DNA from: Candidatus Equimonas faecalis
GTDB taxonomy: Bacteria; Bacteroidota; Bacteroidia; Bacteroidales; Bacteroidaceae
Direction: 5' to 3'
Assembly (NCBI GenBank): GCA_018066245.1
Contig: JAGHRT010000025.1
Location: forward strand, 1-52,204
Length of the DNA: 52,204 nt
The position numbers and the translations under genes are program-made. The notes below the pieces were generated by a model. The model was given only the letters and a program-made list of their open reading frames with translations. It had not been told where the DNA came from and searched no databases. Of this stretch, positions 4,309 through 33,143 are shown piece by piece. Within the stretch, counting starts at the first letter, position 1. Every line of letters begins with the position of its first letter.

Positions 4309-4896
4309 TTAGTTATAGAGTTTCATTCTTAATCTTTCAAAATCTTCTGTCATATGCGCCTTTATGTATGCTAGTTTGTAACAGATCATTGCTCTGTTTC
4401 GAAAGAATTTTCTATTCGAAAGGGAATGTTGGCGCAATTCTATCTCGTGTAGAACAATCTTTATAGCCGAACTATATCGTTCTTTCTCTTCATCTGAAAG
4501 TGAATCAATGTAGGCAAGGATTTCTTCCTTCTGTTCTTTCCAGAGTAACATTCCATGTGTATCACTGAGGATTTCCTTTACTCTCTCCATTTCTGTGAAC
4601 CTTGGATATGTAAATGGTTGTATCTTCTGAATCTTCAGGTATGTATAGATATACGGATTAACTGCCAACCCATGGCTTAGTGCGATTGTTGCAGTCAATT
4701 CATCCATATTCTTTGGTTTAATTTGTCGAAGGTCGTACTTGTCCCATTCGGATTCCATCATGAAGATGCCGTCTGTATCTGCTCGTTGAAACAACTCAAA
4801 TGTTGAAGAATCCTCGAGAGGAAGATTGTTTGCATCAAACTTATCAGCAATGAAGGCAAACATTTGCTTAGCCTTTTCTTCTGTCATTCTTTTCAT
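4309..4896 (-). CDS. DnaE (DNA polymerase III alpha) fingers-like protein lacking catalytic parts
   Basis: The 195 residues align by eye to one segment of bacterial DnaE. FELFQRADTDGIFMMES matches the DnaE LFxxGDTxGVFQxES motif; LRQIKPKNMDELTATIAL matches LKPxxxEDLIAxxAL; ILSDTHGMLLWKEQ matches ILxDTYGIxVYQEQ; and YKLAYIKAH matches YQTAYLKAHYP, in the same order and similar spacing. This covers the fingers and following region only. The PHP domain, the palm aspartates, the clamp-binding and OB domains are absent, so it should not polymerise DNA. It overlaps the upstream partner by four bases (ATGA), so the two are translationally coupled. Its role might be binding a replisome partner or DNA; this is inference. 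Confidence 0.7.
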   Translation of the reverse strand: MKRMTEEKAKQMFAFIADKFDANNLPLEDSSTFELFQRADTDGIFMMESEWDKYDLRQIKPKNMDELTATIALSHGLAVNPYIYTYLKIQKIQPFTYPRFTEMERVKEILSDTHGMLLWKEQKEEILAYIDSLSDEEKERYSSAIKIVLHEIELRQHSLSNRKFFRNRAMICYKLAYIKAHMTEDFERLRMKLYN

Positions 4897-5393
4897 GCGC
4901 GTGTTCTATCTATGATTATATACAACTTACTGAACTTTACTATTGGGCGACCGAGGTATGTTGATATGTTATAGCCATTTGTCTTTGCCCAATCGACAAT
5001 TTGGTTCCGGTATTCTTCTGGATAATAGATTGTCAGTATTTTTTGTTCAATCATCTCGCTCCATGTAAGAGGAAGGCCAATCTTATTGATGTCTTCAACC
5101 TGTGCTATTCCAAGAGCAACAGCAGTAGGACTTTTAACGAAATCTCCTTTTTCTGGTGTTGGAGTCACCACAAAAGACTGTTTAACGCCATCAACAAGCG
5201 ATTTGATTGCCAAGAGTTCCTGGGCAAGTTCAAGTTCTGCAATGAAGTCCACCTCTGCATCAATAAGGTGGTTAAACATGTCATCTTCGTGACCGAGTTG
5301 TTTCAGTCCCCAGTGTGCCTGAAAGCGGAGGGTCTCAACGGCACTCTTCTTTGCATGTGCCTCTGCCTTCTTCTGATTCTTTTTCTTTGTCAT
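4893..5393 (-). CDS. Unknown partner of the DnaE-like protein (possible remnant palm region)
   Basis: The 166-residue protein has a Lys-rich N-terminus and a central acidic helical stretch. The C-terminal part, VALGIAQVEDINKIGL then YRNQIVDWAKTNGY, faintly resembles the DnaE palm region (ALGIxxVxPI, later RDxVIxYVxxxYG), but without the PDIDxDF catalytic motif. With the next gene it could represent a DnaE core split in two and stripped of its active site; the similarity here is weak. The two genes form an operon, divergent from the WYL regulator, with 156 bases between starts that must hold both promoters. It could also be an unrelated small protein. Confidence 0.5.
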   Translation of the reverse strand: MTKKKNQKKAEAHAKKSAVETLRFQAHWGLKQLGHEDDMFNHLIDAEVDFIAELELAQELLAIKSLVDGVKQSFVVTPTPEKGDFVKSPTAVALGIAQVEDINKIGLPLTWSEMIEQKILTIYYPEEYRNQIVDWAKTNGYNISTYLGRPIVKFSKLYIIIDRTRA

Positions 5394-5501
5394 ACTTTGT
5401 TTGATTTTGTACGTTACTATTACATAATACGATGAAAAATCTTCAAAATCGGTAATTTTACCACCTTCTCTGCAAAATTTCCGCAGAACAAACGCAATTT
5501 C

Positions 5502-5533
5502 TTCGTGATTTTGCCGTTATTTTGATAAATTTG
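5502..5533 (+). promoter_or_regulatory. Promoter of the WYL regulator gene
   Basis: TTCG (5502-5505), 20 bases, then TAAATTTG (5526-5533) is close to the Bacteroidota TTTG-N20-TAnnTTTG promoter. The start site would be near 5540, leaving a leader of about 10 bases before the ATG at 5550. Confidence 0.55.
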
Positions 5534-5549
5534 CAGAAATTTTTGAATC

Positions 5550-6473
5550 ATGATCAGTAAAACTTATCTCAGATACATTTGGCTACTTGACACTATAAAG
5601 CGTTCAAAATATCCTCTCACATTCGAGGATATTGTTAAGATATGGGAGGGGTCTCCTTATGCCTATATGGGTGGTTTGCCAATTCGCACCTTCCACGAAC
5701 ATCGCAAAGGCATCGAGGAAATGTTTGGAGTTATCATTGAATGCGATAAATCCAAGGGTTACATATATTATATAAAGAATCCAGAAATCCTAATTCAGAA
5801 TCCTTATGCACAACTTTTATTGCGTAAGTATAGTGTTCCACAGGATTTCTCTACTTTTAACATGATGCGTGACCGTATTTTGTTGGAAGAGATACCTCAT
5901 GGTACTGGTTACTTCGACTCCGTTGTTGAGTCTATGAGAACTAATACAGAACTTGTGATTGACTATCAACGTTATGAGGGACAACGAGAAACACTTACGA
6001 TGCAACCTTATTCTATGAAGGTGTACAACAGAAGATGGTATGTACTTGGCTATATTAAAGAAAAGGAATCTATCAGGCATTTGGCATTGGAAAGGTTTCT
6101 TGACCTTCATACAACGACTAACAAGTTTGAATTTCCAAAGGACTTCATCCCTAGAAAATACTATGACAATGTTGTAGGTATTTATGTGAATGAAGATCTC
6201 CCAGTCGTTAATCTGAAGATAAGGGTGTATGGTGTACAGATGGAATACATGAGAATGTTACCACTCCATAAGTCACAAAGCGAAGTAAAGTCACGCTACG
6301 GTGAGTTCGCTGAGTTTACCTACAGAGTCTGTCTAACACCAGAGTTAAAGTCAAAGATACTGGCAATGGGACCGAACGTCGAGGTGTTGGAACCACTGGA
6401 ATATCGTGAAGAGATAATGTCGCAAATTAGTGCTTCTCTTGGTAGATATATGAAAAAAAATCAAGAATTCTAA
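5550..6473 (+). CDS. WYL domain transcriptional regulator
   Basis: The 307-residue protein has an N-terminal winged-HTH-like region (about 1-75) and a central WYL domain whose namesake motif is W163-Y164-V165-L166 in RRWYVLGY, followed by the expected conserved region ending in LALERFLDL. A C-terminal WCX-like region (about 215-300) follows. WYL proteins sense nucleic-acid or nucleotide ligands through the WYL fold and often repress defence operons (BrxR and CapW are characterised examples). Here it lies directly upstream of the sigma factor and nuclease operon, 100 bases away on the same strand, and divergent from the DnaE-like pair, so it could control either. The regulatory role is inferred from context. 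Confidence 0.88.
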   Translation: MISKTYLRYIWLLDTIKRSKYPLTFEDIVKIWEGSPYAYMGGLPIRTFHEHRKGIEEMFGVIIECDKSKGYIYYIKNPEILIQNPYAQLLLRKYSVPQDFSTFNMMRDRILLEEIPHGTGYFDSVVESMRTNTELVIDYQRYEGQRETLTMQPYSMKVYNRRWYVLGYIKEKESIRHLALERFLDLHTTTNKFEFPKDFIPRKYYDNVVGIYVNEDLPVVNLKIRVYGVQMEYMRMLPLHKSQSEVKSRYGEFAEFTYRVCLTPELKSKILAMGPNVEVLEPLEYREEIMSQISASLGRYMKKNQEF

Positions 6474-6515
6474 TGATGTTCTGCGGAGTTTATGCACACA
6501 ATGCTCCCAAAACAC

Positions 6516-6560
6516 CCAATTTCACCCATTTTCATTCGTATATATAATAGAGACACATAA
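6516..6560 (+). promoter_or_regulatory. Possible promoter of the sigma factor/nuclease operon
   Basis: A TTCG near 6535 followed after about 19 bases by TAATTTCG (one mismatch from TAnnTTTG) precedes the sigma gene at 6574. It is weaker than consensus, as might suit a regulated promoter. Confidence 0.35.
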
Positions 6561-6573
6561 TTTCGATAGTACA

Positions 6574-7146
6574 ATGAATAAGAAAATTACAAACCGCGTC
6601 AGTCAGTCTTTGGATTCATATCTGGTAGAAGTAAATAAGCATCCACTTCAAACAGTAGAGGAGCAAACTGAGCTCGCTCATCGCATTAAAGAAGGTGATA
6701 AAGAAGCCCTCGCTCAACTCATTACCGGCAACCTCCGTTTTGTAGTAAGCGTAGCAAAGCAATACCAGAATAGAGGCAAGTCAATGGAAGCACTTATTGA
6801 GGCTGGTAACAAAGGGCTAGAACTTGCGGCTAAAAAGTTTAATCCACAGCGGGGTTTCAAATTCATTGCTTACGCAGTTTGGTCCATCAGGGCGAGCATC
6901 CTTGCATTCCTTGAAACTTCAACGAATAGCATCAATCTGTCAGAACTCACTGTAGAAGAGAAACGAGAATTGGTTTCAAAAATGACCAACGAGCGTGACA
7001 AGGAGATACTTACCAGATGGTTTGGTCTTGTTGACTCGCCAGAGTCACTTGATGAAATCGGACAAAGCAAGAATCTAACAACAAGAAGAGTAGAACAACT
7101 GAAAGCCAGGGCTATTGCAAAACTAGTAGAGAATGGCAAAAAATAA
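6574..7146 (+). CDS. Short RpoD-like sigma-70 factor without region 3
   Basis: The 190 residues begin with a region 1.2-like helix pair (LDSYLVEVNKHPL). An almost canonical region 2 follows: NLRFVVSVAKQYQNRG, then RGFKFIAYAVWSIRASI, the -10 recognition and melting helices. A shortened linker lacks region 3, and the protein ends with region 4 (SLDEIGQSKNLTTRRVEQLKARAIAKL). Housekeeping Bacteroidota RpoD is about 290 residues with region 3. The short form suggests an alternative factor that directs core RNA polymerase to a limited set of promoters, perhaps those of this operon. Its stop overlaps the next start by 14 bases, so it is cotranscribed with the downstream genes. Sigma genes inside candidate defence operons are uncommon. 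Confidence 0.85.
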   Translation: MNKKITNRVSQSLDSYLVEVNKHPLQTVEEQTELAHRIKEGDKEALAQLITGNLRFVVSVAKQYQNRGKSMEALIEAGNKGLELAAKKFNPQRGFKFIAYAVWSIRASILAFLETSTNSINLSELTVEEKRELVSKMTNERDKEILTRWFGLVDSPESLDEIGQSKNLTTRRVEQLKARAIAKLVENGKK

Positions 7147-7348
7147 CACCGAGTGTCAGCAACGCCTATGGATATTGGACGATTATCAGTCAATCATTGA
7201 AGATCCCGAATCCTATGGGTACCCCAATATAGCGGAACACATGAGCGAGGTCATTGCTGACATCAAAGAAGACATTGAGCAAGTCTTTGAATGTCATATT
7301 GATACAGAAAAGATTAAAAATATTCTACACAACTATAATAATGAGTAA
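7133..7348 (+). CDS. Small acidic protein, unknown
   Basis: This 71-residue acidic protein (many Asp/Glu, helical) overlaps the sigma gene by 14 bases and ends in an overlap with the following nuclease-like gene (start at 7341). The tight nesting strongly implies translation and a role with one of its neighbours. It could be an anti-sigma-like partner or an inhibitor of the adjacent nuclease; neither is supported by a motif. Confidence 0.65.
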   Translation: MAKNNTECQQRLWILDDYQSIIEDPESYGYPNIAEHMSEVIADIKEDIEQVFECHIDTEKIKNILHNYNNE

Positions 7349-8255
7349 GACAACGATTATGGAATTATTGCAGAAGGTAAAACCTAATGCAGACATACCG
7401 TCACAATACGAGTATATTTATGATAGCAAAAAGAAAGATTTAACTCTCCGTGTCAAAATTAAGGGGCTAAAATCAAATATGCAGGATGACGAGGCTGCTT
7501 TTGAAAGTTGGGCTATAGCTCTAAAGTACTACCTTAAGGATACAATCGACACCGTTACAATAGATTGGGAACGAGACTTTGTTAAGGGTGAAGAAGGCTA
7601 TTTGCATTATAACAGGTTTGTTTATAGATTATTAAAGTTTGTACAAACATACTCTTGGGCTAAATCGGCTAAAAGCATTCCAACAATTCCTTCGCAACTA
7701 TATTGCAATATTGGAAGAACTGTAGCAGCTGATAAATCAAAGCATATTAAAAACTCAGAAGGTTGGTTAGAATGCCAATACGTTGATGATCATTCTAGTG
7801 AATACGATGTAATGAATCATCAGTTCCCTGTTGGTCTTTTTGATGGAAAAGTTAGTGGTACGACGCATTATACCACAGGTCAAAAAAGTGCTATTGACAT
7901 TTGGGCAATAAAAGGTAGTTGTTTAAGCATTTTTGAACTGAAGAAAGCTGACAACAAACCTTTAGGAATAATCTCTGAACTTATGTTCTATACAAATGTA
8001 TTGGATGATATATTGTCTCATCGTATAATGTATGAAGCTAACGAAAATACCAAATATGCTATAAGAAATAATATTAGAGGATTCAAAAATTTTTTTGAAG
8101 CATATTCTTCTGGAATTATCAATCATATCGATTCTGTCTTTCTTGCAGATAATCTTCATACTCTCCTTACAGATGAGCTTATATGTTTTATAAATGATTC
8201 GCCTAGATGGAAATATAAAAAAATTACATTTAGAAAGTTAGCTGTGAGCAAATAA
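7341..8255 (+). CDS. PD-(D/E)XK nuclease-like protein
   Basis: I chose the ATG at 7341, overlapping the previous stop, over an upstream in-frame start at 7254 that would lie inside the previous gene. The 304-residue protein has the core D186-x12-E199-L-K201, in SAIDIWAIKG then IFELKK, the arrangement of PD-(D/E)XK nucleases (beta strand with Asp, next strand with ExK). Upstream conserved-looking segments (EGWLECQYVDD, QFPVGLF) may form the rest of the fold. It probably cuts or binds DNA or RNA. The family name is not recognised. Codon use is as AT-rich as the surrounding island. Confidence 0.65.
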   Translation: MSKTTIMELLQKVKPNADIPSQYEYIYDSKKKDLTLRVKIKGLKSNMQDDEAAFESWAIALKYYLKDTIDTVTIDWERDFVKGEEGYLHYNRFVYRLLKFVQTYSWAKSAKSIPTIPSQLYCNIGRTVAADKSKHIKNSEGWLECQYVDDHSSEYDVMNHQFPVGLFDGKVSGTTHYTTGQKSAIDIWAIKGSCLSIFELKKADNKPLGIISELMFYTNVLDDILSHRIMYEANENTKYAIRNNIRGFKNFFEAYSSGIINHIDSVFLADNLHTLLTDELICFINDSPRWKYKKITFRKLAVSK

Positions 8256-8286
8256 TTAAATGTTATATTTTTATTAACATACCAGT

Positions 8287-8616
8287 ATGAACCTAGTAAC
8301 CACATGCATAGGTGATCTTCCAGAAGAGTTGCGAGAAGTAGCCATAAACGAGCAAAGAGAACGTCGCAAAAAAGGTAATATCTATTACCCGTTCCTGTCT
8401 GATGAGTGCGTAGAATCATTGAAAGATGAGGTTATGCTCACAATCTGGCCAATGGAGAACGGTTTTATTTTCATGATGGATGACCGCCATAAATTTATCG
8501 AAGTACCAGATTCTGAATGCCCATTATCAGCCAAAAGAGCCAAATGGTATCTGGAACACATGCAACCTTGGACAAAAGAGGTAGAAGACATGTGGTTTGA
8601 GACAGTAGCTGACTAA
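8287..8616 (+). CDS. Small protein, unknown
   Basis: A 109-residue protein of mixed charge, rich in Glu and Trp toward the C-terminus (WYLEHMQPWTKEVEDMWF), with no membrane segment or recognised motif. It is 31 bases after the nuclease-like gene and 15 bases before the MBL-fold gene, so it belongs to the same transcript. Function cannot be assigned. Confidence 0.65.
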   Translation: MNLVTTCIGDLPEELREVAINEQRERRKKGNIYYPFLSDECVESLKDEVMLTIWPMENGFIFMMDDRHKFIEVPDSECPLSAKRAKWYLEHMQPWTKEVEDMWFETVAD

Positions 8617-8631
8617 ATAACAATTTGCAGC

Positions 8632-9891
8632 ATGAATATAAAAATACATAGAGGACTCGACCAAATCGGCGGTTGTATTACGGAGATTTCAACGGAAACC
8701 TCCCGAGTTTTTATCGACTTCGGTCAAAATCTGCCTGGTGATGGTGAGCCAACAACTCCCGAAGAGGATATGAAGTTGGTAAACTCAATCATAGACCAAA
8801 ATATGAAGGAACATCAAGCGGTGTTCTATACACATGCTCATGAAGATCATGTCGGACTCTTCCAATACATTCCACTTGACCAGTATATTGGAGAGGGAAG
8901 TAAGGATTTATTGCTGATAAAATATAGAACTCTGGTCGAAGCACATGAGAAAGCAAAAGAAGATTATTACAAGACAAGGTACGTGGAGAATCTTCATAAG
9001 GAAGCGATGCTTGAAATGAATATTGTTCACGCACAAACTCTTGTAGAAGAGCTGGAGAAGTTTAGAACATGGAAACGAGCGAACCCAAAGGAAGTGCCAA
9101 CCACTATAGCCATTGGCGACATCAAGATAACCCCCTTCTTCAACTGCCATAGCATCTATGACTCCCACATGTTTCTTATCGAAGCAGAGGGCAAGCGTAT
9201 CTGGCACATGGGCGACTACCGCGAACATGGCTATATGGGTAAAGGTTTGATACCAACGCTAAAGAAATATGCCACAGACATCGATGTGCTTATTACAGAG
9301 GGTACGATGCTCAAACGTAAAGACAAGTGCATCCATGAGCATATTGTGTCGTACAAGATGCAGAATGTGATGAAAGCCTTCAAATACGTCTTCGTCCTTG
9401 CATCTGCAACTGACATAGAGAGACTAGCAGCCATCAAGCAGGCTTCAATTGATGCAGCCAAAACCCTCTGCATCTGGTCTTTGTTTATTAAGAGAACGAT
9501 GGAGTATTTCACAGAGCGAGAATCAAAGCAATCAAAGGGTTTGTTCTCTTTTGATCCTTTATTCTACAATGACCGTATGCTCAGAAAACTTAAGCAGACA
9601 GGTATGACAATGGTAGTCGGCACGTCTATGATGGATCGACTCAAGGGTTTACTTGATAAGCTACCACAGGAGGAGACTCTTCTCATTTATTCATCATGGG
9701 ATGGTTATTACAAAGATCCTGAGCAGGTGAAGGTCAATCCAAAGTACAAGCAGTTCCGCGAAATGTTCCACAATGTTGTGGACATACACACCTCTGGTCA
9801 TGCAGACCGCCAGACAATCGAGAAAGTAATCAAAACAGTTAATCCGAAGGAAATTATCTGCATCCACAAAGAGGCAGATGCAAATTTATAG
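8632..9891 (+). CDS. Metallo-beta-lactamase-fold protein, beta-CASP/RNase J-like
   Basis: The 419 residues contain the metal-binding signature H68-A-H70-E-D72-H73 (THAHEDHVG), a further ligand near H173 (NCHSIYDSH) and D195 (HMGDYREHG). Near the C-terminus HTSGHAD (H390) and ICIH (H412) are the beta-CASP motifs B and C. Beta-CASP enzymes are two-zinc nucleases acting on RNA (RNase J, CPSF-73) or DNA. The protein is shorter than RNase J (about 550) and lacks its C-terminal domain. A charged helical insertion (about residues 95-150) follows the HxHxDH motif. Within this operon it would be an RNA or DNA processing effector; its substrate is unknown. Confidence 0.85.
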   Translation: MNIKIHRGLDQIGGCITEISTETSRVFIDFGQNLPGDGEPTTPEEDMKLVNSIIDQNMKEHQAVFYTHAHEDHVGLFQYIPLDQYIGEGSKDLLLIKYRTLVEAHEKAKEDYYKTRYVENLHKEAMLEMNIVHAQTLVEELEKFRTWKRANPKEVPTTIAIGDIKITPFFNCHSIYDSHMFLIEAEGKRIWHMGDYREHGYMGKGLIPTLKKYATDIDVLITEGTMLKRKDKCIHEHIVSYKMQNVMKAFKYVFVLASATDIERLAAIKQASIDAAKTLCIWSLFIKRTMEYFTERESKQSKGLFSFDPLFYNDRMLRKLKQTGMTMVVGTSMMDRLKGLLDKLPQEETLLIYSSWDGYYKDPEQVKVNPKYKQFREMFHNVVDIHTSGHADRQTIEKVIKTVNPKEIICIHKEADANL

Positions 9892-9899
9892 TAAAACAG

Positions 9900-10736
9900 A
9901 TGAATTATAAGGAATTTAATCAGCTTGTAATAAACAACATGCCAGAGAATCCAATTCCTGGTTTGTGGCAACAAAAAGGACAACCAAGAACTCATATTCT
10001 TGGGAATCCTTCAACTTCTGAGCAAAAAGCAGAGTTGATAAATAAATACTCACTTCTGCCAAATGTCCCATCAATTGATTGTAATACAATACATCTTCAT
10101 CAGTATGCACATCATTTGAATTCGTCACAGATTATGTGCTATAATTTCTTCCGTCCTTTGATTGAAAGCTATGATGGGAAAATGTATAAACCTAAGGATT
10201 CTTTATTGAATCTAATAGGAATGGAAATCGATCAAGAAATAGAACCTCATGGAGCCGTGTGCAATTTTGAGTATATTGACGATTCTGCAGAAAACACAAA
10301 CTTTGATTTTTATTTCAAAAAGGAAGACGTAGAAGTGTTCTTTGAAATTAAATACACTGAGAGGGAATTTTCCAAAAAATCCTCAGCTAAAGACCCTCAT
10401 GCCCAATATGAATCGATATATAAGCCTATGATTGAAAATACCAAAGAACTTTTTATTGGTGAAACAATCAGTGAGCAGGACTTTAATAATGAGTATTATC
10501 AGTTAGCTAGAAACTCTATACGAGCAACTTCCGCTGATAAGCATGTGTTCTTTGTATGCCCAAAGGAACACGAAGAACTAATCAATCAATTTGTTGAATT
10601 TTCAGATAAATACCTAACAGAAAAGGGAAAAGAACGTATTAAACTCATTACGTGGGAAGATCTTGTACAGGATGCTTATCGTTTGGGTATAAACGTGAAC
10701 GAGTTTGCTAATCGCTATCTTGCTTTTATGCCATGA
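9900..10736 (+). CDS. Putative restriction endonuclease, PGN_0703-like PD-(D/E)XK
   Basis: The 278-residue protein has the nuclease core D136-x12-E149-I-K151 (NFDFYF then FFEIKYTE), with an acidic residue in CNFEYI (E124) upstream as in type II-like restriction folds. The segment LHQYAHHLNSSQIMCYNFFRPL is characteristic, as I recall, of the PGN_0703 family of putative restriction endonucleases in Bacteroidales. No methyltransferase is visible nearby, so a classical restriction-modification role is unlikely. It begins 8 bases after the MBL-fold gene and ends overlapping the next start by four bases. Confidence 0.75.
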   Translation: MNYKEFNQLVINNMPENPIPGLWQQKGQPRTHILGNPSTSEQKAELINKYSLLPNVPSIDCNTIHLHQYAHHLNSSQIMCYNFFRPLIESYDGKMYKPKDSLLNLIGMEIDQEIEPHGAVCNFEYIDDSAENTNFDFYFKKEDVEVFFEIKYTEREFSKKSSAKDPHAQYESIYKPMIENTKELFIGETISEQDFNNEYYQLARNSIRATSADKHVFFVCPKEHEELINQFVEFSDKYLTEKGKERIKLITWEDLVQDAYRLGINVNEFANRYLAFMP

Positions 10737-11344
10737 ATACAATTAAATACATAGAAGAGCAGATACTGCTATATTCCGATTCTACCAAGGAAAAGGATAT
10801 GGTTCGAATTCAGACGTATCTTGAACTACGCAAGAAGTTGCTGGACGAAGAGTTTATCAATCATCTTGATGAGTACCTATCAGAGTTGGCTGATTTTAAC
10901 GAACGTATGAAGACAGCCTTGCGAACATTATGGGAAGATGCTCAAAAGTGTTTCGATATATCTAAGAGCATGGATGGTTTTGACATTGAAATTCGTGCGT
11001 ATCTGGAACTTGATGTAAAGGAAGATGACAACGAGAAAAACTGGTTCGAGATATACTGTTTGCTCTCTGACCCTTCCTACAATCCCGGGTATCATAGCGG
11101 AGTATGTCTTTCACCCATTATCCTGAAGTCATCCCACAAACCGTTGTTGGCATCGTTCGATGAATTTATTGGCAACGATGGTCAATCATGGAATGAAGGG
11201 TTATCTGATAGTCTTACTAAAGACATTCCGCTTACTATAATGTTCCATCACTTATTTGACCATACATATTGGTCCCTTTTTGACATGGTAAAGATACAAC
11301 ATTTTAACGCTGTTATGAACACCACTTATGAAAAAATAATATAA
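10733..11344 (+). CDS. Unknown protein coupled to the nuclease gene
   Basis: The 203 residues are acidic and helical at the N-terminus (about 1-80) with a compact, hydrophobic C-terminal half. The ATG overlaps the nuclease stop (ATGA at 10,733-10,736), indicating translational coupling and perhaps a partner or inhibitor of that nuclease. No known motif, signal peptide or membrane segment is seen. Confidence 0.65.
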   Translation: MNTIKYIEEQILLYSDSTKEKDMVRIQTYLELRKKLLDEEFINHLDEYLSELADFNERMKTALRTLWEDAQKCFDISKSMDGFDIEIRAYLELDVKEDDNEKNWFEIYCLLSDPSYNPGYHSGVCLSPIILKSSHKPLLASFDEFIGNDGQSWNEGLSDSLTKDIPLTIMFHHLFDHTYWSLFDMVKIQHFNAVMNTTYEKII

Positions 11345-11367
11345 TCAACTACATAAATCAAGAAATT

Positions 11368-12306
11368 ATGAGAATAAAAATTGTTTCGATGCTTGTATTG
11401 CTCTCATGCTCAGTTGCAAACGCGCAATCTTTAGTAAACGAAGTCTTTAAGACGATTGTTCCTGAGACAGAAAGAGCATATTACAACTTTCTGTCTATTG
11501 ACGAACAAAGTAAAATCTTAGCTTACGGTAATGGCGTAAGCAAGGTGTATGACGAAAAATGGAACGTTCTGGAGAGTCATGATGCAGGACAAGAAGAACT
11601 CAATACTGGTTATTTTTATTTATCTCGCAGCTATCAATATGATAGTAACAAAAAAACATACACTACAACCGCATGGGAAAAATCAGACTATCCCAATAAA
11701 TCTGCGAAATATTCATATAATATTTGGACTGATAATTATAACAAATTCTATAATGGAGAGGTTAAAACTTTATATTATCTAAGGGGTGTGGATCAACAGT
11801 TTCTTAGATCTCACTCTGTTTCGACTTTTAGTGATAGCTATACAGGTATAGCAGGACAATTAAGTCGAGTAAGTCATCAATATACTGCCTTAACAACAGA
11901 ATTCAATTTGGTTGATTGGGATGGTAATATTTTGTGCAGAATTGATCCGCCATATTACATAAGTAGTGGTTATTGCCAAGCAATAGATGTTAAAGATAAG
12001 ACATATTTAATTGTGACAGCATACTACATGTATCCAAAGAATGTTATTAAAGATTGTGACACCTATAGTACTGTAGAATATGAATTGTCTTCAAAGGAGG
12101 TAGAGCCTGGCTACTATCATTATTTTGTGTATGAGTATGATAGTAAAGCAAATGCTATACAAATGATAAAGACAGATAAGTCATTGGCTAATAGAAGAGA
12201 AGTTGCTCGTTATGACGTGAATGGGGTAAAACTTCAAAGCCCACAAAAAGGAGTTAACATTATACTATATTCCGATGGCACATCAAATAAGGTGATCGAA
12301 CAGTAA
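11368..12306 (+). CDS. Secreted protein, unknown
   Basis: The 312-residue protein starts with a signal peptide (MRIKIVSMLVLLSCSVANAQ, cleaved before or near QS), so it is exported to the periplasm. The remainder is rich in Tyr, Ser and Asp (for example YHYFVYEYD) and looks beta-rich, possibly a propeller-like fold. An exported protein among cytoplasmic nuclease-type genes is unexpected. It is 24 bases after the preceding gene and its stop directly abuts the next ATG at 12,307. No family is recognised. Confidence 0.7.
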   Translation: MRIKIVSMLVLLSCSVANAQSLVNEVFKTIVPETERAYYNFLSIDEQSKILAYGNGVSKVYDEKWNVLESHDAGQEELNTGYFYLSRSYQYDSNKKTYTTTAWEKSDYPNKSAKYSYNIWTDNYNKFYNGEVKTLYYLRGVDQQFLRSHSVSTFSDSYTGIAGQLSRVSHQYTALTTEFNLVDWDGNILCRIDPPYYISSGYCQAIDVKDKTYLIVTAYYMYPKNVIKDCDTYSTVEYELSSKEVEPGYYHYFVYEYDSKANAIQMIKTDKSLANRREVARYDVNGVKLQSPQKGVNIILYSDGTSNKVIEQ

Positions 12307-12897
12307 ATGAATATTCTACAAATATCAGACACTCATAATAAACATCTGCAACTGACAAACCTGCCAGCTGCTGATGTTATTGTGCATTGTGGCGACTTTA
12401 CAGAACAAGGCACAGAGGATGAGGTTCTTGACTTCTTGAACTGGTTCATAGAATTGCCTTATAAGCACAAGATATTCATCACTGGTAATCATGATTTGTG
12501 TCTTTGGAATGCAGAGAATATTGAAGAACTTCCTGATAATGTTCATTTCCTTCAAGACAGAAGTTGCGAAATAGAGGGTATCAAATTCTTTGGATTGGCA
12601 TACAATCATTCTGAAAGGTTTATTCCAAGCGATACCGATGTCCTTATTACGCATGAACCACCTGTAATGATACTCGATGAATCGTCAGGAGTCCATTGGG
12701 GAAATGCACCTCTGAGAAATAGAGTGTTTGAAGTAAAGCCAAAGTATCATTTGTTTGGTCATGCACATGATGCTTTTGGCACAGAGAAAAATGATGGTAT
12801 TGTATTTTCAAATGGCGCATTGTTAGATGACAATTACAACATGCGTTATAACCCAAAGGTGTTTCTCTTGACATGTAAAATTATTGAAAGTGACTAA
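12307..12897 (+). CDS. Metallophosphoesterase (calcineurin-like)
   Basis: The 196 residues contain the complete metallophosphoesterase motif set: SDTHN near residue 7, VHCGDF, GNHDLC, THEPP and FGHAHD. These bind two metal ions and hydrolyse phosphomono- or diesters, including cyclic nucleotides and RNA ends. A chromosomal gene of the same subfamily is at 32,556-33,143; the two are colinear but clearly diverged, so the island copy is not a recent duplicate. It is the last gene of the plus-strand block, immediately after the secreted protein. The substrate is unknown. Confidence 0.9.
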   Translation: MNILQISDTHNKHLQLTNLPAADVIVHCGDFTEQGTEDEVLDFLNWFIELPYKHKIFITGNHDLCLWNAENIEELPDNVHFLQDRSCEIEGIKFFGLAYNHSERFIPSDTDVLITHEPPVMILDESSGVHWGNAPLRNRVFEVKPKYHLFGHAHDAFGTEKNDGIVFSNGALLDDNYNMRYNPKVFLLTCKIIESD

Positions 12898-13537: not shown

Positions 13538-14785
13538 TTAACGTTTGAGTTTAACAACAGGCTTACAGAGCCAGCTCGCTTTCTTTGCACAGCGACGAGC
13601 CCAGTCATCGTCTTTCTCGTTCTTGTCACGTCCCCAACCACTGCCAGGACTGCCACCGCCACCACATGATTCGGCAATTCGGGTTGCACCATCGACATAA
13701 CCAGCGAACAGCAGGATGGCAGTCTTGATGCAATTTTCAAGAGCCTCGGTACTATCATTGACAGGTTCAACAGCATCTTTGATGACATTGTAGATGTGGT
13801 CAGATACATAGGTCTTTTGCTCTTTGCCGTTGTTGTCCCAAAGAACGTAAGCACGTGTTTCCTTAGTGCCAGAAGACTGGCTTGAAACCTGAGTGGATGC
13901 GCCTTGCACTCTTGCGCTTTGCCCTGGTGCAACTGGTTTTGATACTGGCTTTGCCATGCCCATGCCAGTGTCTGTACTGCCAACCGTCACCTGAGTAGCC
14001 TTGTGGAATTTCAACCAAGTGCCTCTCAGATTCTTCAGCATAAGGTCACGACCTACACCAAGCATAGAAGACTTGTAACGAGAGTTACCCCTCATGATGG
14101 TGTACCCATGCTTAACTCCGTCTTTGTCCTCCTGAACCTTCACGTCATAACCAAGTGCCTTGATTCTGTCAACATAGTCGTTCCAAGAGTAAGCTCGCAT
14201 TTCTGAAAGCACCTTGTAACACGCATCCGTAATCTCTTTGACATTCGCCTTGTGAATATCCTCTGGCAACTCCCAACCCTCTTCAACATTGATGGTGTGG
14301 GCAGCCATTGTGCAACGATTACCGATAAAACGGTTTGTCATCAGATTGCCGTCAAGGTCAATGCGATTGATCAGAATATGAAGGTGAGGAATGCCAGACT
14401 TTGAATCGTGATGGACACACGCAAACAACTGTGCTCGACTTAGGTCAATGGCAGGTACCTTCTTTCCTTTCTTGCCTGACTTCTGTGATGCCTTAACCAA
14501 CTCATCAAGGAATCGGATGGCATACCTTCTCCAATCCTCAGATGTCCAGTCCTTTGACTCTTCAAGGGATGGGGAAACCTCTATACGGAAGATAGGCTTA
14601 TCGACAGGCTTCTTGCGGAACTTTGGTGCATACTTCATCTGGATGACTTGCATCTCATTCCACATGCCCAAGGGTGGTAGACCTTCAGACAGATTCTTGG
14701 TGTAAACGATGTCTGCTCTGTTGTGCCTGGTACAGTACTCAGTCATCCGAGCACCATGTTCGATAGGTGTACATTCAGCGACCAT
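13538..14785 (-). CDS. Relaxase (MobA/MobP-like)
   Basis: Relaxases nick the element at oriT and lead the cut strand into a recipient. I chose the Met at 14,785 (MVAECTPIEHG), which overlaps the end of mobC, over a longer reading frame lying entirely inside mobC. The 415-residue protein has a candidate catalytic Tyr near residue 17 (RMTEYC). The metal-binding histidine motif is HHDSKSGIPHLHI (residues 125-137). A GGGG-rich basic tail follows a variable linker, and a similar tail occurs in the fragment at 385-933. It lies next to mobC and the oriT-like repeat, as usual for small Bacteroidales mobilizable elements. Confidence 0.88.
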   Translation of the reverse strand: MVAECTPIEHGARMTEYCTRHNRADIVYTKNLSEGLPPLGMWNEMQVIQMKYAPKFRKKPVDKPIFRIEVSPSLEESKDWTSEDWRRYAIRFLDELVKASQKSGKKGKKVPAIDLSRAQLFACVHHDSKSGIPHLHILINRIDLDGNLMTNRFIGNRCTMAAHTINVEEGWELPEDIHKANVKEITDACYKVLSEMRAYSWNDYVDRIKALGYDVKVQEDKDGVKHGYTIMRGNSRYKSSMLGVGRDLMLKNLRGTWLKFHKATQVTVGSTDTGMGMAKPVSKPVAPGQSARVQGASTQVSSQSSGTKETRAYVLWDNNGKEQKTYVSDHIYNVIKDAVEPVNDSTEALENCIKTAILLFAGYVDGATRIAESCGGGGSPGSGWGRDKNEKDDDWARRCAKKASWLCKPVVKLKR

Positions 14786-15182
14786 GAGTCTGCAGATACT
14801 TGAAGTGATCCTGAATATCTCCCCAGCGACGAATGAGATATGTAGTAGCCTCAATCCAGTTGTTCATGAACTCAGCGTCGTGGAAGTAGTTATGCAGCTC
14901 CTCCTGAGTCTTTCCACCGAGTGCATTGTGGATATGAACAAGCTCGCTGCGGGCATCCCCAAGAGAGATAAGAGCCTTAGTCTGTTCATCGTTCATAAGC
15001 TGATAAAGCATTATTTCAAGCGACTTGTCATGAATATACTGGCTCTTCTTGATTCCAGCCTTAGTAGACTCTTCAAGAATCGTTGCGTAATCCTCAGGTG
15101 AGTAGCACACCGTGATACGTGGGTTGCGTACTTTCTTCTTTTTCTTAGCAACCTTTGCTTCTGGTTTTACATTTGAATCCAT
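14775..15182 (-). CDS. MobC-like relaxosome accessory protein
   Basis: About 135 residues: a basic N-terminus (AKKKKKVRN) followed by a ribbon-helix-helix-like segment (PRITVCYSPEDYATILEES) and helices, as in plasmid MobC proteins that bind oriT and help the relaxase open the DNA. The frame extends five codons further to 15,197; I prefer the Met at 15,182. It overlaps the relaxase start by 11 bases and lies directly downstream of the oriT-like repeat. Confidence 0.75.
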   Translation of the reverse strand: MDSNVKPEAKVAKKKKKVRNPRITVCYSPEDYATILEESTKAGIKKSQYIHDKSLEIMLYQLMNDEQTKALISLGDARSELVHIHNALGGKTQEELHNYFHDAEFMNNWIEATTYLIRRWGDIQDHFKYLQTHGR

Positions 15183-15197
15183 AGTTGTATAAATCAT

Positions 15198-17433: not shown

Positions 17434-18693
17434 CTATGTCGTAAAATCAGTAGCAATTACTATGGTGTCCGCTGCTTGCTCTTTCTTTTCGTCAACAATC
17501 TTCGCGTAGATTTGAGTTGTAGTAACCTTAGTATGTCCGAGCATCTTGCTAACTGTGTAGATGTCCGTTCCGTTTGTAAGCTGTAGCGTTGCGTAAGTAT
17601 GACGGAAGCAGTGGAAAGTGATATGCTTGGTAATGCCTGCAGCTTTTATCCATCGTTCCAATGGCTTGTTAATCCAAGATGGGTCTTGCAGTCCTTCAAA
17701 CACCAAACGGTCTGGCTCTCCTCTTTCTCCGCAAAGCTGATATGCTTGATCTGATATTGGCATATATTGCACTCCTTTTGTCTTCTGCTGAGTGAACAAG
17801 ATGCGGTAGTGCTCGCCATCCTTGATTATCTCTTTCCATTTCAACTTCTGTATATCACTATGGCGCATACCAGTTAATGCAGAGAAAAGCGACGCTCTTT
17901 TCATAATTGGTCTGTCGCAAGGAGTGGCTGCCAGTGTGTTGAGTTCGTCGATAGTTAAGTACTCGCGTTGTTTGTCTGAATAGGCGATGTTCTTTGCTTT
18001 AGCTGCAATATCAACAGTAAGGTACCCGTCAATGAATGCCTGATGCAGTCCGGCTTTGAATATAGAGAAATATGTAGAAGCAGTGTTGCGTGTGATTGTT
18101 CCTTTCTTTGAACCTCCTTGTGGAGCGTTGATGAGGAAGTTCTTGTAATCTTCCATCAGGTTCATGTCAATAGTAGAAAAGGTCATAGGCTTGCCCTCAG
18201 TGAACATCTTCATGAGCGCAACCTCACGATCCCAGTTGACACGGATAGATTTTGAACTGTTCTGATGACGCTTATCCCTCAAGTCTTCAAAGTACTTGAT
18301 AAAGTCACATTTTGATCTTTCGTTCTGAGCCGCTTGTTCTGCTTCTGTTTCCGTGTATAGCGATTGGTTATCGTATTCATGCTGACGTATGTCTCGAACC
18401 TTATCTGCAAAAATACACGCCTCTTGATCAATGGTGGATCTACATTGGATGATTCCATTGACATCACGCTTAGGTCTATAGTAAGCCTTACCATCAGCAA
18501 GTGTACGTCCCGAACTGTTCTTGTCCCAGATTGGAGTCGTAACAAAACGTCCCAGTGGTTCATGCTTTCTCATTGGTTTCTCTCGTCCTGGGACAAAGAC
18601 AGGAAAACTCTCAATGATTAGAGACCACTGCTCTTTGTATTCGGATTTTCGGAGTATTACTTTGAATACTGTGCGTTTCATCGGAGTCTTCAT
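17434..18693 (-). CDS. Tyrosine recombinase/integrase
   Basis: The 419-residue protein has an arm-binding N-terminal domain, a core-binding SAM-like domain (about 135-230) and a catalytic domain. The Arg box is TGMRHSD, a Lys lies in QQKTKG, then HCFRH, LGH and the nucleophile Tyr in TQIYAKI. It is the length of Bacteroidales element integrases (about 400-420). It overlaps the upstream HTH gene by four bases, so the two are cotranscribed from near the right end of the element. It would integrate and, with the excisionase-like protein, excise the island. Confidence 0.95.
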   Translation of the reverse strand: MKTPMKRTVFKVILRKSEYKEQWSLIIESFPVFVPGREKPMRKHEPLGRFVTTPIWDKNSSGRTLADGKAYYRPKRDVNGIIQCRSTIDQEACIFADKVRDIRQHEYDNQSLYTETEAEQAAQNERSKCDFIKYFEDLRDKRHQNSSKSIRVNWDREVALMKMFTEGKPMTFSTIDMNLMEDYKNFLINAPQGGSKKGTITRNTASTYFSIFKAGLHQAFIDGYLTVDIAAKAKNIAYSDKQREYLTIDELNTLAATPCDRPIMKRASLFSALTGMRHSDIQKLKWKEIIKDGEHYRILFTQQKTKGVQYMPISDQAYQLCGERGEPDRLVFEGLQDPSWINKPLERWIKAAGITKHITFHCFRHTYATLQLTNGTDIYTVSKMLGHTKVTTTQIYAKIVDEKKEQAADTIVIATDFTT

Positions 18694-32476: not shown

Positions 32477-32555
32477 AGAAAGAATAGGGTGAAGAATGAG
32501 CAATGACAAGTGAAGAGTGGTGGGCTTCTCACATGTATTTATATGTTAATTTCAA

Positions 32556-33143
32556 TTACAGGGGGGGTGCTACGAGATGGTAGCGGTTGTCAAGCACGGC
32601 CGCGTTGCTATAGGTGGTAGATCCGCAGATGCTGATTGAATGGGCGTTATGCTGGTGCCCAAACAGGTGGCACTTAAGCAGTGGCAGTCCTTCTGCCTTT
32701 TTTTGAAGTTCCTTGCTTCCACAATGGCGCCCGTTCCAAACGTCGCCTATCCCAAACGGTGGTTGATGGGTGATAAGGACCTGCGTATCAGCTGGTATGC
32801 CTGCTACCATTTTGGTAAGGCGGCCTGCACGTACGTCCTCCATGAACATCGGTACGCCAAAAAACCTTACGCCTTCCAACTCTATGCCGGAATTGCATAG
32901 GTAGTGGACATCCTCTGGCAGCCCCTCAATGTTTCCGGCTCCGTACATGCACATATCGTGGTTGCCGGATATGAATAGCTTGTGCCGACAGGGCAAATCG
33001 CAAAACCACTCTATAAAGTCGTAGGCTTCCTCTTCGCTGCCAGCAAAGGTGAAGTCGCCTGAATGTACGGCTATATCAGCCTGGGGCAATTCTGTCAGTT
33101 TGCGGTGCTGACCATGTGTGTCAGAGAGATGGAGGATGGTCAT
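32556..33143 (-). CDS. Metallophosphoesterase, chromosomal copy
   Basis: The 195 residues show the calcineurin-like motifs SDTHGQH, VHSGDF, GNHDMC, THQPP and FGHQHN. The protein is colinear with the island gene at 12,307-12,897, sharing the same size and the signature ITGNHD/ISGNHD, but differs through much of the sequence. The cellular substrate is not known for this subfamily; small phosphodiesters are plausible. It is 48 bases downstream of the aspartate kinase gene. Confidence 0.9.
   Translation of the reverse strand: MTILHLSDTHGQHRKLTELPQADIAVHSGDFTFAGSEEEAYDFIEWFCDLPCRHKLFISGNHDMCMYGAGNIEGLPEDVHYLCNSGIELEGVRFFGVPMFMEDVRAGRLTKMVAGIPADTQVLITHQPPFGIGDVWNGRHCGSKELQKKAEGLPLLKCHLFGHQHNAHSISICGSTTYSNAAVLDNRYHLVAPPL

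Follow-up and report, generated by a model that had tools for sequence, protein, structure and literature searches.

Gene content and setting of the locus

The contig JAGHRT010000025.1 of Candidatus Equimonas faecalis (Bacteroidota, order Bacteroidales; assembly GCA_018066245.1) was analysed over a stretch of 52,204 nucleotides (positions 1 to 52,204 of the forward strand, hereafter the window), which carries at positions 5550–12897 a block of ten open reading frames (ORFs) headed by a WYL regulator and including, as the core gene, a β-CASP metallo-β-lactamase nuclease. An earlier sequence-only reading had described ten plus-strand genes with small gaps or overlaps, and the ORF listing of the window confirmed this arrangement: all ten are on the plus strand and, apart from a gap of 100 bases between the WYL and sigma-like genes, neighbours overlap by no more than 14 bases or are separated by no more than 31 bases. 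The gene set recognized in that reading was incomplete in that it overlooked the most unusual part of the locus, two divergent minus-strand genes (4309–5393) related to the replicative DNA polymerase DnaE, which belong to the module. We tentatively regard the block as one copy of a widespread and recurring anti-invader, most likely anti-phage, module in which look-alikes of host enzymes would act as sensors. The features of the locus are as follows.

4309–4896, minus strand: stand-alone DnaE fingers-like protein, 195 amino acids (aa); PF17657 DNA_pol3_finger, 1.2e-19; PDB 2hpi
4893–5393, minus strand: stand-alone DnaE palm-like protein, 166 aa; L and T in place of the catalytic Asp pair
5394–5549: spacer separating the WYL operon from the divergent DnaE-like pair, where promoters and an operator are expected
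5550–6473, plus strand: WYL-WCX regulator, 307 aa; PF13280, 2.9e-12; PF25583, 3.5e-6; PADLOC WYL, 9.5e-23
6574–7146, plus strand: shortened RpoD-like protein, 190 aa; regions 1.2, 2 and 4, no region 3
7133–7348, plus strand: 71-aa protein, no assigned function
7341–8255, plus strand: PD-(D/E)XK protein (putative, by motif), 304 aa; D186 and E199-x-K201 invariant in 11 sequences
8287–8616, plus strand: 109-aa protein; no significant Pfam, PADLOC or NCBIfam family
8632–9891, plus strand: β-CASP metallo-β-lactamase, predicted nuclease, RNase J-like, 419 aa; core gene
9900–10736, plus strand: second PD-(D/E)XK protein, REase-ARP family, 278 aa; PF22558, 3.3e-38; PF20796, 2.4e-9
10733–11344, plus strand: 203-aa protein coupled to the REase-ARP gene; no family found
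11368–12306, plus strand: protein with an apparent signal peptide; no significant Pfam, PADLOC or NCBIfam family
12307–12897, plus strand: calcineurin-like metallophosphoesterase; Metallophos, 2.1e-12; PADLOC PDC-S10, 6.8e-70 over residues 1–189

For the first PD-(D/E)XK gene the ATG at 7341 was taken as the start, the ORF list beginning at an upstream TTG (7254). The secreted-looking protein (11368–12306) is probably an accessory or a passenger. The block is cargo of a mobilisable element, as the sequence-only reading had supposed: a relaxase (13538–14854), a NikA-like protein (14775–15197, scoring slightly below its cut-off) and a tyrosine integrase (17434–18693) are encoded nearby, and dnaK adjoins. 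Another contig of this genome (C7) carries the module a second time in partly decayed form; here the fingers and palm genes share one strand, and the start of the WYL gene, the sigma-like gene and the β-CASP gene are divergent from them. The β-CASP gene of this copy overlaps the sigma-like gene by 4 bases, and its WYL start seems to be joined to the end of a DUF6946-like (PD-(D/E)XK-like) gene. A scan of the intergenic region 5394–5549 for a WYL operator returned weak short repeats and no convincing palindrome, and comparison with the second copy by eye revealed no shared operator element.

Stand-alone relatives of replicative polymerases

The best PDB matches of the fingers gene are structures of Pol III alpha (2hpi, 2.5e-12). 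The palm gene alone had no Pfam match; the profile of its family (A2, nine rows) matches Pol III alpha in PDB (2.6e-7) and also finds DnaE in 148 of the 151 genomes of the window's family, the full-length housekeeping enzyme being present in nearly all of the matches listed. Relatives of the palm gene match PF07733 (1.7e-6 and 4.7e-4), while those with palm and fingers in one ORF match both PF07733 and PF17657 (3e-21 to 4e-14) and, in PDB, Pol III alpha (7e-27). The AlphaFold model of the palm protein has a pLDDT of 68.9, and its top Foldseek match is DnaE (7pu7), with an E-value of only 7e-3. The two genes are homologous to the palm and fingers of C-family polymerases, but they differ from DnaE1, DnaE2, DnaE3 and PolC in being short, split and devoid of the catalytic Asp pair. 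Wherever annotation is visible, the look-alike genes are annotated as hypothetical. A census of C-family polymerases (PMC12926913), in the portion available, lists four polymerase groups and mentions no such fragments.

The distribution of these genes was assessed in 77 β-CASP loci, of which 43 are Bacteroidales-type, 30 Clostridial and 4 Alphaproteobacterial. The Bacteroidales-type set comprises the window, 30 loci of the window's family, 11 loci from a search for named relatives (one with no label beyond 'uncultured bacterium') and a Prevotella plasmid; the window is assigned to this type because the nearest named relatives of its β-CASP protein are from Bacteroidales. Most loci come from metagenome-assembled genomes with short contigs, in which genes are longest-ORF calls, and the counts given below for 75 loci leave out two loci without a β-CASP ORF. 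The controls were 64 loci of housekeeping RNase J obtained in the same scan of the collection. Partial replicase ORFs, that is, those under 1000 aa, are present in 24 of the 77 β-CASP loci (14 of 43 Bacteroidales-type, 10 of 30 Clostridial and none of 4 Alphaproteobacterial) versus none of the 64 controls (Fisher test, 7e-8), two of which have full-length dnaE.

The association holds at the level of genomes. Stand-alone DnaE pieces occur at 16 or more places (13 palm, 3 palm-fingers) in at least 13 of the 151 genomes, and 11 of these genomes are among the 27 with β-CASP relatives (Fisher test, 5e-8); 11 of the at least 16 places share a contig with the β-CASP gene. Among the pieces located elsewhere, the palm of locus L205 adjoins a PD-(D/E)XK gene and that of L206 a WYL gene, L207 has its piece together with WYL, PD-(D/E)XK-like and sigma-like genes, and at L208 and L209 no other module gene was seen. 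These tallies were made by hand, as were the entries for the Fisher tests, and they leave out frames of 252–882 aa (G039, twice; G100; G001; G138, twice; G040) which score like housekeeping DnaE and were taken as broken or contig-cut dnaE.

The look-alikes are DnaE-like in all 14 Bacteroidales-type loci (in L006, L054 and L106 by the palm-family profile only) and, judged by the better score, PolC-like in all nine such loci of one Clostridial order (L099 and eight others). In L268, L270, L271 and L273 the palms score about equally with DnaE and PolC, and the fingers match PolC only; the L099 fragment scores 93 bits against the PolC of its own genome versus 70 against its own DnaE. The Clostridial genomes encode both DnaE and PolC, in line with what the census reports for Clostridia (PMC12926913, in the portion available), whereas the Bacteroidales genomes encode DnaE only. 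The type of look-alike thus matches the replicase type of the lineage, which fits a role of the look-alikes as baits for phage proteins, as docking adaptors for nucleases or as dominant-negative copies.

DnaE-like and PolC-like proteins are found together on pCY186, a plasmid of the isolate Butyrivibrio proteoclasticus B316 (L276). Downstream of its operon of WYL, PD-(D/E)XK-like and β-CASP genes are encoded, in this order, DnaX, a 480-aa DnaE-like protein (PF17657, 4.7e-34; PF07733, 2.2e-30), an AAA ATPase, a 332-aa PolC-like protein and a DnaA/Hda family protein. The gene annotated as DnaX (9504–10709) has intact-looking motifs; like the DnaA/Hda family gene (14800–15092), which also lies beside the dead DnaE- and PolC-like genes, it could be an additional copy of a replisome gene or could serve plasmid replication.

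Two further features were observed around the β-CASP genes. A small domain with the motif 'DRYxGYGSPEE' stands alone beside Clostridial β-CASP genes or is N-terminal in the PolC-like proteins of L268, L271 and L273 (domain entries L258_7, L260_12, L261_6, L262_9, L271_8 and L252_13). AAA+ ATPases of two types are encoded near β-CASP in L098 (12271–13986), L099 (7222–8808), L106 (7322–8992), L255 (2015–3436) and L272 (12431–14029).

Loss of catalytic residues and purifying selection

In an alignment of 27 palm fragments with 11 housekeeping enzymes, the catalytic Asp pair is kept in all 11 enzymes, while at least one Asp is lost in 25 of the fragments and both are lost in 21; the shortest palms align weakly, so that single residues are uncertain there. 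The window palm has L and T in the two columns. The dN/dS ratios of sampled pairs close enough to measure are 0.09 for palm, 0.14–0.19 for palm-fingers (dS above 1) and 0.20–0.23 for PolC-like proteins, and the value of the β-CASP partner (0.10) is near those of the look-alikes. As for other pairs, two palm pairs are saturated, one β-CASP pair has a dS near 3, and one PD-(D/E)XK pair gives 0.43 at a dS of 0.04. Purifying selection acts on the sampled look-alike pairs. Low dN/dS combined with the loss of Asp residues indicates that the look-alikes have been kept as proteins, but mostly not as polymerases. We considered whether the DnaE pieces are remains of a decayed dnaE, or were left behind by an element inserting into dnaE, and rejected this explanation because they are stand-alone ORFs with their own starts, show dN/dS ratios of 0.09–0.23 in the sampled pairs and recur beside the nuclease pair.

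Being catalytically dead copies of essential proteins, or in the case of the sigma-like protein copies with changed promoter-contact residues, the look-alikes might instead be dominant-negative effectors: dead polymerase and shortened sigma would jam host or phage replication and transcription, with the nucleases acting separately. Some phages do carry their own DnaE. However, the portions that connect DnaE to the holoenzyme are missing from the fragments, and many of them are only about 166–200 aa long and strongly diverged; we regard this explanation as improbable.

The nuclease core

The product of gene 8632–9891 matches Lactamase_B_2 (2.4e-6) and RMMBL (4.3e-6) in Pfam, and its profile finds 2az4 (EF2904) and RNase J1 (3zq4) as best PDB matches, as well as the β-CASP RNase FttA (9bct). 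The residues H68-x-H70-x-D72-H73, H173, D195, H386, H390 and H412 are invariant in an alignment of 26 sequences. The gene belongs to the β-CASP, RNase J-like family and is predicted to encode an active nuclease. Relatives are present in 27 of the 151 genomes of the window's family (E-value 0.001), one of which (G068) has a 40-residue remnant only. In a Clostridial order, family members (E-value 1e-40 or better) are found in 24 of 238 genomes; the other hits are either weak fragments or long frames of the RNase J type. Seven plasmid records carry the gene, from Butyrivibrio, Prevotella, Sphingomonas, Rhizobium and Cereibacter. In L057 (330–2174), L036 (1168–3063) and L109 (3423–5273) the β-CASP protein is 614–631 aa long, being extended at its C-terminus by some 200 aa.

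The two PD-(D/E)XK proteins of the sequence-only reading fared differently. Gene 9900–10736 is assigned to this superfamily by its Pfam match (PF22558, 3.3e-38). The product of gene 7341–8255 gave no significant match in Pfam or NCBIfam, none in PADLOC and no PDB profile match, and it is a putative PD-(D/E)XK nuclease by virtue of a conserved motif: E140, E144, D186 and E199-x-K201 are invariant in 11 sequences, the others being 29–69% identical to it. Its AlphaFold model, built from a two-sequence input, has a pLDDT of 38.7.

A gene of 150–420 aa with the D-x(n)-[EQ]-x-K pattern, on the same strand as β-CASP, adjoins it in 51 of 75 loci versus 35 of 510 control ORFs; the pattern also matched a few non-nuclease ORFs, and such loci, read by eye, were not counted on those alone. 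The PD-(D/E)XK-type neighbours form several mutually dissimilar sequence clusters, so the nuclease partner is much more variable than β-CASP. In L104, a relative of the 7341–8255 protein (68% identical) overlaps the β-CASP gene by 4 bases. Likewise, a Cereibacter plasmid encodes PD-(D/E)XK (motif recognized by eye), β-CASP and phosphoesterase proteins with 4-base overlaps and in the same order as in Bacteroidales. Directly upstream of β-CASP in L265 lies a minus-strand gene (5252–6730) in which a DnaQ-like exonuclease domain (PF00929, 3.2e-20) is followed by a PD-(D/E)XK-like stretch; the nuclease part was read by eye, and exonuclease motif I looks altered by eye.

Sigma-like proteins

Pfam recognizes regions 1.2, 2 and 4 in the window sigma-like protein (PF04542, PF04545; region 2, 2.5e-11). 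Compared with RpoD of the same genome, it has no region 3 and is changed at the −10/−35 residues: WSIRA replaces WWVRQ, and the recognition helix of region 4 is altered. The changed positions are presumably promoter-contact residues. L006 and L105 also differ at the WWVRQ site, while L045, L056, L059 and L107 keep WWIRQ or WWVRQ. Sigma-like ORFs were found in 12 of the 77 β-CASP loci, all of them Bacteroidales-type (12 of 43), versus four of the 64 controls, where they are 238–380 aa long. Those of L044 (305 aa) and L106 (288 aa) are full-length and RpoD-like, the former possibly belonging to the host itself. The remaining ten have lengths of 72–198 aa (L041 is truncated where its contig ends); all ten lack region 3 and several also region 1.2, while the shortened proteins retain most of region 2. 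DnaE pieces are present in nine of the 12 loci (Fisher test, 5e-4); the order is palm, sigma, fingers in L056 and palm-fingers, sigma, palm, PD-(D/E)XK-like, β-CASP in L059.

The sequence-only reading had called the window protein a dedicated sigma factor. In the corresponding explanation a working sigma would transcribe the operon, and the DnaE pieces would be unrelated neighbours or regulators; the three regions kept in the window protein and the full-length members in L044 and L106 speak for it. However, a working promoter-specific sigma factor is not supported, because region 3 is missing from the shortened members, some of which are only 116–141 aa long, and because the residues at the WWVRQ site and in the recognition helix are changed, the window, L105 and L006 being the most diverged. 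With DnaE pieces also accompanying the sigma proteins above chance, we consider this explanation quite improbable.

Sigma region 2 binds core polymerase, and β-CASP RNases such as FttA act on transcription complexes. The retention of most of region 2 and the match of the β-CASP profile to FttA would therefore suit docking adaptors, with the sigma look-alike clamping β-CASP to RNA polymerase and the polymerase look-alike bringing the PD-(D/E)XK protein to replication forks. The look-alikes would then aim the nucleases at transcripts or forks of the invader rather than sense phage proteins. How an invader would be told from the host is left unexplained by this alternative, and within DnaE the clamp and tau are held by regions other than the palm and fingers; we regard it as unlikely.

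Regulator, phosphoesterase and defence context

Relatives of the WYL protein are present in 16 of 75 loci and those of the phosphoesterase in 11 of 75, both in none of the 64 controls; these counts are too low because they derive from single-sequence profiles of the window proteins (L261, for example, has a Pfam WYL match). Across the 151 genomes, phosphoesterase relatives occur in 35, most of them without β-CASP, but of 12 places with at least 59% identity, nine are beside a β-CASP gene or its remnant. A second, weaker relative of the operon metallophosphoesterase (47%) is encoded in the window at 32535–33143 on the minus strand. In L008, a relative of the 71-aa protein (57% over 47 residues) is encoded upstream of the PD-(D/E)XK gene. 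The 203-aa protein has relatives in nine of the 151 genomes in all, including one in L063 (63.5%) downstream of a sigma-like gene and a β-CASP remnant. The sequence-only reading had looked to co-occurrence of the sigma, PD-(D/E)XK and β-CASP genes in other Bacteroidales elements as its check; β-CASP does recur with PD-(D/E)XK, WYL and phosphoesterase genes, and the sigma-like gene only in its 12 loci. Homologues scattered in unrelated contexts, which that reading would have counted against a module, are seen in part for the phosphoesterase and the 203-aa protein, not for the nuclease pair.

Restriction genes (McrC, N-6 methylase and DUF262 proteins) are located near some copies, and upstream of the module the window itself encodes, at 1364–2431 on the plus strand, a Fic/DOC protein (PF02661, 2.7e-21) whose C-terminal part is a winged helix. 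A scan of 80 of 288 eligible flank ORFs and 80 of 318 eligible control ORFs, in which families rather than proteins were counted, yielded 30 and 8 PADLOC families, respectively. This surplus is modest and suggestive only. It would also be expected if nucleases, WYL proteins, phosphoesterases and look-alikes merely gathered on mobile elements as in defence islands, with no joint action, and the wide occurrence of the phosphoesterase and the varied accessory genes are compatible with such hitch-hiking. Yet 4-base overlaps of PD-(D/E)XK and β-CASP genes recur across distant phyla, and the replicase look-alikes are, among the matches listed for the 151 genomes, essentially restricted to these cassettes, so that hitch-hiking appears very improbable. 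A phage origin of the block was considered and rejected, as no β-CASP match was found in 50,697 phage records and the search with the DNA of the block gave no match.

Relationship to known systems

The proposal that the block is a nucleic-acid-directed, probably defence-related module is supported by the co-occurrence data and the PDC-S10 match. As that proposal had anticipated, the literature searched, mostly open-access, contains no description of a system of such composition, nor of dead C-family polymerase fragments in defence loci, nor of a phage experiment on this module.

Type VII CRISPR-Cas (PMC10910872, in the portion available) has a β-CASP effector, Cas14, whose structures are matched by the profile of the window β-CASP protein. 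However, no Cas5, Cas7 or Cas6 family was found among the ten block genes (Pfam, PADLOC, NCBIfam), the β-CASP protein scores 21.4 bits against the Cas14 model NF045584 (cut-off 800), and at 419 aa it lacks the Cas10-like C-terminal extension. BREX and CBASS share with the block a WYL regulator at the head of a probably toxic defence operon, but PADLOC detected none of their components among the ten genes. MZA has a sigma-70-like protein in a defence operon, and the MzaA model matches the window protein in the sigma region only (PADLOC, 1.5e-19); the score against NCBIfam MzaA is 88 bits (cut-off 800), and no other Mza component is among the ten genes. We therefore rejected Type VII CRISPR, MZA, BREX and CBASS as the identity of the block, their components not having been found. 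For two defence systems, DS-8 and DS-9, metallophosphatases belonging to other families are reported to be essential (DefensePredictor; PMC13092281, in the portion available), and with these and PDC-S10 the block shares a calcineurin-like metallophosphatase, the window protein being a PDC-S10 match. According to the same portion of that source, DS-8 has a NACHT-like domain and DS-9 a HAD partner, and neither has the nuclease pair or look-alikes.

Proposed mode of action

While the anatomy of the module and the co-occurrence of its parts are well supported, the mechanism and anti-phage effect are proposed here from sequence comparisons. A defence role is supported indirectly by the matches to the WYL and PDC-S10 models, the patchy distribution on mobile elements and plasmids, the nearby restriction genes and the flank surplus. 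By analogy with other WYL-controlled defence operons, the WYL regulator would hold the operon low. The effectors would be the PD-(D/E)XK and β-CASP nucleases, usually neighbours and often translationally coupled, and the sensors the non-catalytic look-alikes of sigma-70 region 2 and of the host replicase (palm and fingers of DnaE or, in Clostridia, of PolC), with which we infer that the nucleases form a complex. The simplest reading of these copies of the two enzymes whose control matters most to phages is that they are baits, or partners of phage or host factors, through which the nucleases become free. The look-alike would be bound, in place of the replicase or RNA polymerase, by a phage protein that takes over or obstructs these host enzymes; alternatively, takeover of the host enzyme would free the look-alike from its usual partner. 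The freed nucleases would then cut nucleic acid and halt the infection, probably at a cost to the cell. The nuclease pair may accept different sensors, as hinted at by the DnaQ-like fusion in L265.

Several observations weigh against look-alikes as sensors of this module. Within the DNA examined, 53 of the 77 loci show no replicase piece, although some contigs end nearby, and the pieces are missing from all four Alphaproteobacterial loci, so the look-alikes are accessory rather than core. The Clostridial fragments of L255 (split into two frames) and L259 retain both catalytic Asp residues. In a comparison with ten DnaE and one PolC sequences, some Bacteroidales palms score slightly better against Clostridial DnaE than against the Bacteroidales enzymes, so that descent from the gene of the own host is unsupported. 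The RNase J control loci differ from the β-CASP loci in taxonomy and do not correspond to them in mobile context, and the Fisher tests ignore kinship among loci, in which duplicates remain; the genome-level test within the window's family answers part of these limits. We hold the bait reading only tentatively because the docking and dominant-negative explanations draw on the same facts, and the present data decide for none of them.

Implications

The look-alikes could, with considerable reservation, be seen as integrated decoys: dead copies of the replicase (DnaE in Bacteroidales, PolC and DnaE in Clostridia) and of sigma-70 region 2 that are kept by selection as baits wired to nucleases, the bait following the replicase of the lineage. 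Integrated-decoy logic is established in plant immunity, and the module, if so used, would be its bacterial counterpart, directed at a pair of central host enzymes which phages take over. One would then predict, in phages of Bacteroidales and Clostridia, proteins that latch onto DnaE, PolC or sigma, and the look-alike genes could be used to fish for such proteins. Even without the bait idea, dead replicase fragments kept by selection and tied to a nuclease pair constitute an unexplained class of genes.

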